Positions 4,704 to 45,557 of a DNA stretch of 64,000 nt are shown here, piece after piece (position 1 is the stretch's first letter; every line of letters begins with the position of its first letter). The stretch comes from Companilactobacillus allii (GTDB taxonomy: Bacteria; Bacillota; Bacilli; Lactobacillales; Lactobacillaceae): the NCBI RefSeq assembly GCF_001971585.1, contig NZ_CP019323.1, forward strand, positions 486,053-550,052, read 5' to 3'. Position numbers and translations under genes: made by a program. A model generated the notes under the pieces. It worked only from the letters and a program-made list of their open reading frames with translations. It was not told the DNA's origin and made no database searches.

Positions 4704-4850
4704 ACTCTTTTCCTACTCAAACTCGCAGTGAAAACGTGTGCCAAAACACAATTTTCTTCGTTTAATAAAAAATAAGTAGACATCCACGCAAGTGGATGTC
4801 TACTTATTTTGCATTATACTCGAAAACTGAACGTGTTTTGTCGCACTCTG
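4704..4850 (-). repeat. Palindromic intergenic element, copy A
   Basis: Lies between the converging argD and metB-like genes. The apical stem is a perfect 18-bp inverted repeat (4770-4787 with 4792-4809, loop GCAA). The outer arms are GTGTGCCAAAACAC (4736-4749) and GTGTTTTGTCGCAC (4833-4846). The far end (4704-4735) is almost identical to copy D. Read with the minus-strand gene, GAGTGCGACAAAACAC begins about 15 bases after that gene's stop codon. The apical stem has T-rich flanks on both sides and could terminate both transcripts. Confidence 0.85.
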
Positions 4851-4861
4851 CCTTTTTGTGA

Positions 4862-6001
4862 CTAAATTTGATCAAATGCCTGCTTCAAATCATCTAATAG
4901 ATCTTTTGAATCTTCAATACCGACTGATAATCTCACTAATTCATCTTTAATACCATTTTGTAAGCGGATTTCACGAGGAATGGCAGCATGGGTCATGACT
5001 GATGGAACCTCAATCAAACTTTCAATTCCACCTAAGCTTTCAGCTAGATCAATCAACTTTAAACTCTCGACAAACTTCTTAGGGTCTAAGCCTGGTTGTA
5101 GTTCAAATGAAATCATTGCTCCAAAGGTATTCATCTGTTCCTTAGCAATTTCATATCCTTTTGACTCCTTATTACCCGGATAATAGATCCTTGCGACTTT
5201 GTCATTATTATTCAAATAATCATAAACAATCCTAGTGTTCTCATCATGGACACGCATACGTACACCCAGTGTCTTAATTCCACGCATCAATAACCAACTA
5301 TCATCTGGTCCCAGCACACTTCCGATTGAATTCTGTAGGAATGCCAAGTCTTCAGCAATCTTGTCGTCACTTGTAACAGCAAGGCCTGCGACAACGTCAC
5401 TATGACCACCAAGATACTTAGTAGCACTGTGCACAACGATATCTGCACCTAGTGTTAATGGATTCTGATTATAAGGTGTCGCAAATGTATTATCAACAAT
5501 AGTCTCCAAATTATGTTTCTTGGCAATTTTGGCGATTCCTTTTATGTCAGTAATCTTTAACAATGGATTAGTTGGTGATTCAAGGTAGATTGCCTTAGTG
5601 TTTTTTTGAATAGCCTTTTCCACTGCATCAAAGTCACTAGTGTCTACTGATGTGAATTCTAGTCCAAATCGTTTTAGAACTTTATTGATCAATCTAAACG
5701 TTCCACCATAGACATCGTTTCCTACAACTATGTGGTCACCAGATGAAAATGTTGAAAATACTGCATGAATTGCAGCTGATCCAGAAGCAAATGCGAATCC
5801 ATATTTGCCATCTTCGATTTCAGCAATTAAAGTCTCTAATGAAGCACGAGTGGGATTGCCTGTGCGTCCATATTCCCACTTAGGACCAGCTCCTAGTTTG
5901 TGTTGGTGAAAGGTTGAAGAGCGGTAAATCGGTGTTGAAACTGCCCCTGTCGTTGGATCTTCACTGAAGCCACCGTGAATAAGTTTTGTATTGAATTTCA
6001 T
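4862..6001 (-). CDS. Cystathionine gamma-synthase/gamma-lyase family PLP enzyme
   Basis: Member of the Cys/Met metabolism PLP family (MetB/MetC/CGL), 379 aa. It has [10 protein letters not shown] near residues 43-52, [10 protein letters not shown], the Asp of VDNTFATPY near residue 170, and the Schiff-base Lys195 in [11 protein letters not shown]. The close relatives MetB (synthase) and CGL/CTH (lyase) cannot be separated by eye. It is 21 bases downstream of a CysK-type gene, an arrangement known in lactic acid bacteria for reverse transsulfuration (homocysteine plus serine to cysteine), so a gamma-lyase role is plausible. Both genes share the cysteine-codon leader upstream. A cysE gene, often third in such operons, is missing here. 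Confidence 0.9.
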
Positions 6002-6022
6002 AATAAATATCTCCTTTAATTT

Positions 6023-6931
6023 TTAGTTATAAATATGTTTACTTAAATAACGTTCACTAGAATCTGGGAACACCGTTACAATCGTTGAATTGCTTGGTAA
6101 GGTTCTTGCTACCTCTAAACTAGCCGCCAAGGCCGCTCCACTGGAACTTCCAGCAAACAATCCTAGATTTTTTGCCATCCATCTAACGTAGTAAAATGCA
6201 TCATCGTCGTCTATGGTTTGAATATCATCAACTTTGATTTCTTTAAAGAATGGTGGGACAAATTCGACTCCTATACCTTCTGTTCGATGAGAATGTTTAG
6301 GCCCTCCATTTAGAATTGAACCAGCAGGTTCAACGGTGATCGACTTCATTTCGCGATTTTTTTCTAGCAATGCCTTGGCTGTTCCAACAAATGTACCACC
6401 ACTACCTGCCCCCGCTACAAAGGCATCTATTTTCGTTGGTATATCATGTAATATTTCTTGGCCCATTGTCTTGTAATACGTCTGTGGATTAGCTTCGTTA
6501 ACGAATTGCATCGGTACATAAGAATCATCTATTTGTGAGGCCAAGTCACGTGCTTTTTTTATTGCTCCGACGATACCATCTTCAGCCGGAGTATTGATCA
6601 ATTCAGCACCTAGGGCTTTCATCAAAACTTGTTTTTCTTGACTGAACTGGTCTGGAACAACTAACTTCACTGTCAAATGATACTTTTGTGCTGCCAATGC
6701 AACACCGATCCCCGTATTACCGGCTGTCGGTTCAATAATTGTTGTTTTATCTTTAATAAGTCCTTTTTCAATTCCATCCTCAATTAAATTGACACCTAAG
6801 CGATCCTTAATGCTCCCACCAGGATTGAACATTTCCAATTTAGCGTAAATATTGCTTCCGTTAGGTACCTTTATATCAAGTTTCATTAAGGGTGTATTGC
6901 CAATAGTTTGGTAAATATTATCAACTAACAT
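6023..6931 (-). CDS. Cysteine synthase / cystathionine beta-synthase type PLP enzyme
   Basis: Fold type II PLP enzyme of the CysK/CBS family, 302 aa, without the C-terminal CBS domains of eukaryotic enzymes. Lys42 in [10 protein letters not shown] is the Schiff-base lysine, TAGNTGIG near 69-76 binds the substrate carboxylate, and GAGSGGTF binds the cofactor phosphate. It either joins O-acetylserine and sulfide or makes cystathionine from serine and homocysteine; the linked gamma-lyase-like gene favours the second. AAGGAG lies 8 bases before ATG 6931. It is the first structural gene after the cysteine attenuator leader. Confidence 0.9.
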
Positions 6932-6953
6932 TCATCTTCTCCTTAAAATTATA

Positions 6954-44549: not shown

Positions 44550-44560
44550 TAAAAAATACT

Positions 44561-44604
44561 AAAAAATAGGAGAAATCTGTGTTCGCAGACTTCTCCTATT
44601 TTTT
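44561..44604. terminator. Bidirectional terminator after scrK
   Basis: AAAAAATAGGAGAA pairs with TTCTCCTATTTTTT, extended by TCTG/CAGA past one mismatch. It serves scrK and the convergent membrane protein gene, whose stop codon touches it. Confidence 0.92.
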
Positions 44605-45140
44605 CATATATTCTTCCTAACAAACTCAAGTGCGTCATCCAACTTACAACGCTCACTAGTTTTTGGCCAATTTGTTTCAGCCACTATTTTCTCACGATTA
44701 ACTGTAGTTATTTCAATACCATCAGGTAATTTTGGCATTACTACTTCGGATATATCAGCCGGAGAATCAATTAACTTCTGTGGTGTTGTAATTCTTTTAT
44801 CCGTTATAACGCTGACTTTTTTAATTTCCGGATAAGTCACTTTCATAGGTAAGACAAAATTAGGATTAAATACCAAGTTGATCTTATCCCACCAGCTCTC
44901 AACTTTATAAAACTCAATTCCACTGGAATCTATCTTTACGTAATTGAGATGCATCGGCAGAAAAATTGGATATATCACCGTTACAAGAACGATAAATGTA
45001 ATCACTGCCAATAATACACAGGGAAAAAGGTTTCTCCAATCATTACTGGCAAATAATGATAATCCAAACACCAAAAATGAGATTAATATGCAAAGTACAA
45101 GCGACCTATACGATTGTTTCTTGCCGAATATCCACTTCAT
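44604..45140 (-). CDS. Hypothetical membrane protein, EbsA-like layout
   Basis: A 178-aa protein, not firmly recognised. Two membrane segments near residues 15-32 and 41-62, then a soluble domain (YVKIDSSGIEFYKVESWWDKI...) that could be PH-like, as in EbsA-type envelope proteins. ATG 45140 is chosen over GTG 45149 because AGGTGAG is spaced for the former. Upstream is a cluster of palindromic-element arms. Function unknown. Confidence 0.55.
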   Translation of the reverse strand: MKWIFGKKQSYRSLVLCILISFLVFGLSLFASNDWRNLFPCVLLAVITFIVLVTVIYPIFLPMHLNYVKIDSSGIEFYKVESWWDKINLVFNPNFVLPMKVTYPEIKKVSVITDKRITTPQKLIDSPADISEVVMPKLPDGIEITTVNREKIVAETNWPKTSERCKLDDALEFVRKNI

Positions 45141-45289
45141 AGCACTCACCTACTTGAATAAATTTGTTTATACAAGTATTAAATATATTAATATACTTAT
45201 CAAAAAATGAGTACTGGATTTAATAGACAACTGGTATATTTCGTTTTTATGTCATGATATTTTTGGAATGTGATTTAAAAAATTATTTT

Positions 45290-45557
45290 CTTGCTTAGCT
45301 GTTTCCTATCGCGTTTCGTTTCAAATTATAATTTCTCCCGTCTAGCTTTTCCTACAAAATACGGTTTTCTTCACTTTTTTGTTTCCTGCAAAAATTCGTT
45401 ACAAAATACTGTTTCCTCTTCTTTGTTGTTTCCTTCGGAAACGCGCTACAAAACACAATTTCTTCCGCTTAATATAGAAATAGGTGTCATTCACTGGCGT
45501 GAATGGCACCTATTTCTATGTTAATGCTCGGAAATTCCCGTGTTTTGTAGCGCTCTA
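45290..45557 (-). repeat. Palindromic intergenic element, copy F, with decayed arm copies
   Basis: The intact part is 45428-45557: outer arms GCGCTACAAAACAC (45443-45456) and GTGTTTTGTAGCGC (45540-45553), fully complementary; 21-bp apical stem (45474-45494 with 45499-45519) with one G-T pair; small hairpin GTTTCC-TTC-GGAAAC (45428-45442). Before it, three decayed arm-like segments begin with TTTCCT (about 45301, 45345 and 45384). The gtrA stop codon TAG forms the end of the element (TAGAGCG). The remaining 140 bases to the next gene show nothing else. Confidence 0.83.

Follow-up and report, generated by a model that had tools for sequence, protein, structure and literature searches.

Dispersed hairpin elements at gene ends of Companilactobacillus allii, probably of mobile origin and candidates to stand in for transcription terminators

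Why does one stretch of a lactobacillus chromosome carry the same elaborate hairpin six times, with part of its sequence kept and part of it changed in matching pairs? The window, i.e. the whole 64,000-nucleotide stretch of Companilactobacillus allii DNA analysed here, was described in the first-pass annotation as holding six structured palindromic elements. All six are present (Table 1), each folding far better than its dinucleotide shuffles (z from -7.7 to -13.4, none of 200 as good). Of the six, only that at 18300-18423 reads on the plus strand, the other five reading on the minus strand. In its reading direction an element runs from an AGAG foot through the outer arms, the paired core strands with their fixed internal loops and the apical stem to a closing CGTTT. 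We propose that these elements belong to a dispersed hairpin family of mobile origin that stands in for transcription terminators, a reading that we regard as probable though far from secure.

The description in the first-pass annotation said nothing of where the elements lie relative to stop codons, of their constant orientation, of their likeness to terminators or of the decoupling of arms from core, and its conclusion that structure rather than sequence is conserved was too strong: the AGAG start, the CGTTT end and the core strands round the internal loops are conserved in sequence, and it is the arms that vary most. The matched outer-stem pairs that it listed are indeed compensatory, except that the outer arms of copy 1 (4704) hold one C-A mismatch. 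The apical stems, taken to be unrelated, are less so: 39 apical clusters take in all 147 genome copies, a resemblance between the stems of copies 2 and 5 is visible by eye, and the tip is a recurring one. Diversity is greater in the outer arms, with 98 distinct arms against the 39 apical clusters among the same copies. A second hairpin, said to follow the first, belongs to the predicted fold of copies 2, 3 and 6 only (11928, 18299 and 45428); it is not seen at copies 1 and 5 (4704 and 29974), can be drawn with a longer loop at copy 4 (28141), and is found by a simple pattern in 35 of the 147 genome copies. Apparent degenerate repeats of element 3' halves adjoin copy 2 (11800-11937) and copy 6 (45300-45430).

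Table 1. Elements and associated features in the window
Feature	Position	Strand	Context and evidence
Copy 1, long hairpin	4728..4849	minus	12 nt past stop codon of gene 4862-6001 (minus); model match 126.9 bits; fold z -7.7
Copy 2, long hairpin	11938..12059	minus	5 nt past stop codon of gene 12065-13069 (minus); 124.5 bits; fold z -12.2
Copy 2, apical stem resembling an intrinsic terminator	11976..12023	minus	simple terminator scan
Copy 2, second hairpin and duplicated 3' half of element	11851..11937	minus	by eye; similar partial matches elsewhere in genome (blastn)
Copy 3	18300..18423	plus	first AG completes TAG stop codon of gene 17363-18301; second hairpin at 3' end; model match, fold
Copy 4	28166..28288	minus	5 nt past stop codon of guaB (28294-29772, minus); model match, fold
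Copy 5	29998..30117	minus	9 nt past stop codon of ORF 30127-30492 (minus); model match, fold
Copy 5, 3' terminus	29964..29977	minus	14 nt identical to one end of the IS1182-family element; compared by eye
Copy 6	45435..45556	minus	first AG completes TAG stop codon of ORF 45555-45965 (minus); second hairpin at 3' end; model match, fold
Copy 6, neighbouring apparent degenerate tandem remnants of element 3' halves	45300..45430	minus	by eye

The first-pass annotation suggested that further copies be sought in this genome and its relatives with a covariance model, and many were found. In the host genome of 2.53 Mb, copy 1 as a blastn query gave 59 matches and a covariance model built from 30 copies gave at least 148, which without one antisense twin make 147 places (set 1). 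The 150 best matches in sequence collected around earlier matches came to 147 places after removal of duplicates (set 2). Counts out of 147 in this text refer to set 2, except those on stop codons, open frames and GNRA loops, which were taken on set 1. The two sets have 140 places in common and a union of 154, so the genome holds at least 154. Within the genus, 34 of 36 Companilactobacillus genomes have a model match at E 0.001, several of them with one weak match only, and the count per genome runs from 0 to at least 92 (at least 92 in G002, 81 in G020 and 46 in G043). Across the order, a search run with strict filters gave a match at E 1e-4 in at least 20 of 246 Lactobacillales genomes and at least 14 of 64 genera, the own genus included, most of the matches being weak and some partial; the notion of a family nearly confined to one genus was overturned by these matches. 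A divergent subfamily with low model scores (AGAGAG...CTCGTTT and similar) was observed in the arrays of loci L187 and L190, in part of L278-L290 and in L064, in this and other genomes. Rfam 15 gave no match at the gathering threshold in the 64 kb window, only sub-threshold matches at ten element loci and at 28100-30200 (a T-box in L330 lies off the element), and nothing relevant to the elements at E-value thresholds. No published name for the family was recognised among the papers listed in searches of a largely open-access literature.

Four tests agree that this is a structured, repeated family with compensatory change, and the covariation claimed in the first-pass annotation lies far above chance. 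In the alignment of the 30 copies, 24 of which came from outside the window and were chosen by script for arm complementarity, 94.3% of cells pair, 28 of 37 pairs change on both sides, and the two-sided cells number 171, where shuffles average 47.5 (sd 7.1) and none of 500 is as high; slid versions of the alignment give 13-38 such cells, and a measure of pair types was matched by 18 of 500 shuffles. Among 150 genome matches, in an alignment fitted to the model, 36 of 37 pairs change on both sides, with 1061 two-sided cells where 285 are expected; among 74 matches from other genomes, likewise fitted to the model and including some antisense twins, the figures are 35 of 37 pairs and 647 against 171 cells. 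The fourth test was blind to the arms: of 114 elements found by their core motifs alone, in sequence itself collected around earlier matches, 82 have all eight inner arm pairs Watson-Crick, compared with a mean of 11.2 and a maximum of 18 in 100 shuffles. In set 2 the outer pairs are standard in 1841 of 1911 cases, and all 13 are standard in 110 of 147 elements.

The elements sit at the ends of genes and are read in the same direction as the gene. With gene ends taken as the ends of open frames rather than of annotated genes, 129 of the 147 elements of set 1 lie no more than 400 nt downstream of the end of a same-strand frame of 70 codons or longer (18 have none), and that end is within 20 nt of the AGAG in 114 and within 10 nt in 106; on the other side a frame is found within 400 nt in 105 and within 20 nt in 20. 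The stop codon is made up of a T and the element's own AG in 40 of the 147; two elements lie at -1 and four at 0. Of 64 elements of set 1 that lie 0-20 nt from a stop codon, 28 have C immediately before AGAG and only 7 have T. Other genomes of the genus, represented by 56 elements from the best-scoring loci, have an upstream frame in 46 cases, within 20 nt in 37, and none in 10, a frame within 20 nt on the other side in 3, and a T|AG stop codon in only 2. Eight elements were placed in other genera: four lie within 20 nt of a frame end (L322, L325, L327 and L329), one at 25 nt, and three have no such frame.

A run of at least four T in the 3' arm of the apical stem, after the loop, occurs in 122 of 147 elements, against a mean of 34 and a maximum of 48 in 200 shuffles, and a run of at least four A in the mirror position in 88 of 147, as a raw count without a shuffle baseline. 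The loop is of GNRA type in the sense direction in 84 of the 147 and in the antisense direction in 2. A T run right at the base of the stem was counted in 27 of the 147 only, since the paired A/T tract lies within the stem. When 4500-18600 was scanned with a simple terminator search, the stem of copy 2 was reported and copies 1 and 3 were missed. Judged from their sequence, the elements carry the hallmark of intrinsic terminators, a stem with a T run near the gene end, and they may well terminate transcription.

At three genes that we compared, near relatives often have plain terminators where C. allii has an element. Behind guaB, which encodes IMP dehydrogenase (TIGR01302), a plain terminator is seen by eye in seven of ten named relatives and neither in two, and in C. 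insicii an element lies between arms resembling those of the former guaB terminator; the ten best GuaB matches of the search are Companilactobacillus species, 93-98% identical, and the eleventh is from Ligilactobacillus. For a permease-like gene (locus L291), 25 of 29 genomes, the own included, have the protein end AKKDAATALRSE unchanged, and in the remaining four one or two residues are different. Here the own genome has an element at T|AG, now with an insertion sequence (IS) inside, five relatives have hairpins of other subfamilies by eye (G013, G024, G045, G001 and G047), and 21 of the remaining 23 have a plain terminator 0-27 nt past the stop codon by scan. Since the hairpins of G013, G024 and G045 are alike, some copies seem to be inherited. 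Behind the gene at 4862-6001, C. allii and G044 carry elements of different subfamilies, and of 27 relatives 12 have a plain terminator, near ones among them (G010, G008 and G015), with no terminator found by scan in 14.

These sites bear on the reading of the elements as a resident, cis-acting family of 3'-UTR RNAs, old at each site and selected for their fold, in which gene conversion homogenises the cores between loci and each locus retains arms of its own, drifting in a compensatory manner. We consider it somewhat unlikely. Most near relatives have no element, or a different one, at the three genes, and neither this nor the range of counts within a single genus suits old residents, although it would explain the likeness of the G013, G024 and G045 hairpins at L291, the matches across the order, the sense orientation and the sense GNRA loops. 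Against it, too, is the nesting of elements: one has a second within its apical stem, with 12 flank bases that match. Flank complementarity beyond this nested copy reaches a score of at least 8 in 9 of 147 elements, where 11.5 are expected by chance, so insertion at the tip is the exception; the suggestion that elements are generally seated inside residual terminator arms is ruled out by the same chance-level figure. By a simple count 23 of the 147 have partial duplicates; the tandem ones that were inspected repeat the 3' half, with arms that are identical or similar. Elsewhere two or three hairpins with differing arms stand in tandem (L176 11543-11908, L187 7456-9004, L190 2027-2396 and L183 701-948), and some of these arrays close with a further 3' half whose arms are the same as, or similar to, those of the leading hairpin.

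The arms and the core behave as if decoupled. Across 127 pairs of elements whose cores agree to 93% or more, which are not independent of one another, the arms differ at 0.215 per site and the cores at 0.038. Two-sided arm changes are absent from 33 of these pairs and number one to seven in the other 94, and one-sided changes occur at least once in 64. The clearest case is that of the places 340972 and 1124477, where the cores are identical at 83 of 83 positions and the outer arms show six two-sided changes and no one-sided change. In other genomes the contrast is weaker (arms 0.159 against cores 0.077 in 71 pairs with cores at least 88% alike). Simple copying does not account for the rewriting of the arms, a point against our own reading. 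Distinct arms on near-identical cores would follow from a resident family with converted cores, but six two-sided changes next to an 83/83 core require conversion tracts that end at the core edge. Copying guided by shape is another answer, and an unlikely one in our estimation: the core would be copied letter for letter and both arms written afresh as complements at each new stop codon, by a route that recognises the gene end and the AGAG/CGTTT foot.

A possible source of mobility lies in the same genome. The IS belongs to the IS1182 family (307.5 bits against a cut-off of 270), and its gene is present in six copies, all at 100% identity, every one with the ends GAGCTTGTGACAWAACTC and GAGC/GCTC; in most of them further inverted flanks can be made out by eye. 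Three of the six copies occupy the place of an element's apical hairpin. Of 147 elements, 21 are followed downstream by the IS end with no more than 3 mismatches in 14 positions and 12 more by the end with 4 mismatches (0 in a reversed control), and the 126 elements other than those 21 have more than 3 mismatches to it; a likeness of the element 5' end to the IS end was seen by eye only. IS relatives with similar ends occur in G008 (by script) and G021 (by eye).

The elements might accordingly be simple MITEs of this IS, deletion derivatives with the same terminal repeats that are moved in trans, which we think very unlikely. The matching end in 21 of 147, the three IS copies inside elements and the IS relatives in G008 and G021 point that way; set against them are the absence of the 3' end from most copies, a likeness to the IS noticed incidentally and at the ends only, arms that vary freely, and a transposase without match in 28 of 36 genomes of the genus. 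In the other 8 the IS1182-type protein was matched, in some by fragments, and no match was found in G002, G020 and G043, the genomes whose element counts are given above. Fragmentary IS1182-family transposase matches were observed at L250-L252 and L258, in G014, G019 and G012. Since the IS is matched in 8 of 36 genomes and the elements in 34 of 36, the local IS cannot be the general mobiliser today, and it is ruled out by this distribution as an explanation of copy number; at most it would serve as one helper, or may have done so in the past. A Y1 transposase of the kind that mobilises REP elements (RAYT) was also considered and rejected: the genome has one such gene, and none of the 148 model matches lies within its locus, 701316-704681. 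In that locus (L216, G000:C1:701316-704681) the Y1 transposase and a TnpB-like gene seem to split a larger gene, and we take the pair to be of IS605 type.

Integron attC sites keep their fold while their sequence varies and stand at gene ends, and a reading of the elements as recombination sites of that kind, hairpins recognised by shape that overlap the stop codon and are used by a recombinase, would suit a shape kept over varying sequence, the 40 of 147 elements that supply part of a stop codon and the short tandem arrays, but it is hardly credible, because attC sites lie in cassette arrays and none was seen here, the copies being, as far as seen, dispersed behind genes.

We return to mobile-derived, dispersed hairpins standing in as terminators, and picture them as follows. 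A typical copy would begin at or just after a stop codon and be read in the direction of the gene, and the 3' end of the mRNA would fold into one long hairpin built of the conserved AGAG/CGTTT foot, the varying matched outer arms, the conserved core and the fixed internal loops. The apical stem, with its GNRA-type loop and its A tract facing a T tract, could end transcription from both sides. On arrival a copy would displace the ordinary terminator of the gene, and since it would replace that terminator its arrival would do little harm. The elements are presumably mobile, most likely spreading by DNA transposition without a protein of their own. At least one subfamily has an end that appears to match the local IS1182-family element, whose relatives delete target stem-loops, terminators included; replacement would be a plausible route of insertion, perhaps helped by a transposase of IS1182 type. 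Against this picture stand the narrow distribution of the IS, the element flanks at chance level, the single orientation where TnSha1 shows both, the seemingly inherited hairpins at L291, the 14 relatives with no terminator by scan behind the gene at 4862-6001, and copies 1 and 3 that the simple terminator scan passed over.

If this is right, about one gene in fifteen ends on a mobile-derived hairpin (some 150 elements over an estimated gene number), and related designs exist in other Lactobacillales. It would show how a genome can swap terminators on a large scale and leave its genes intact, and would offer a natural system for asking how the two sides of a hairpin remain complementary as their letters change.

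Stem-loop replacement has been described in the IS1182 family itself. IS1272 and TnSha1 are reported to delete target stem-loops without target duplication, their targets being hairpins with no preference in primary sequence and terminators among them; of seven targets, hairpins A-E were confirmed as terminators, and a tandem duplication of one end was reported (PMC5678879, PMC4923244). These elements carry a transposase (TnSha1 is 3022 bp) and have been seen in both orientations, for TnSha1 at one and the same target (PMC4923244), whereas the family described here consists of geneless elements of 120-170 nt that are read one way and have a terminator-like stem. With intrinsic (Rho-independent) terminators they share the stem and T run directly 3' of genes and the A tract for the opposite direction; the plain terminators of the relatives are single short stems with neither foot nor core loops nor family kinship. 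Among the intergenic repeats of Firmicutes, BOX, RUP and Efa-1 are likewise short and structured, with copy numbers from the tens to the hundreds; in E. faecalis, Efa-1 is listed as a 163-nt pair of adjacent hairpins in 65 copies (PMC2267715). Compared by description only, the rewriting of arms and the anchoring at stop codons are features that the passages on BOX, RUP and Efa-1 (PMC2267715) do not contain.
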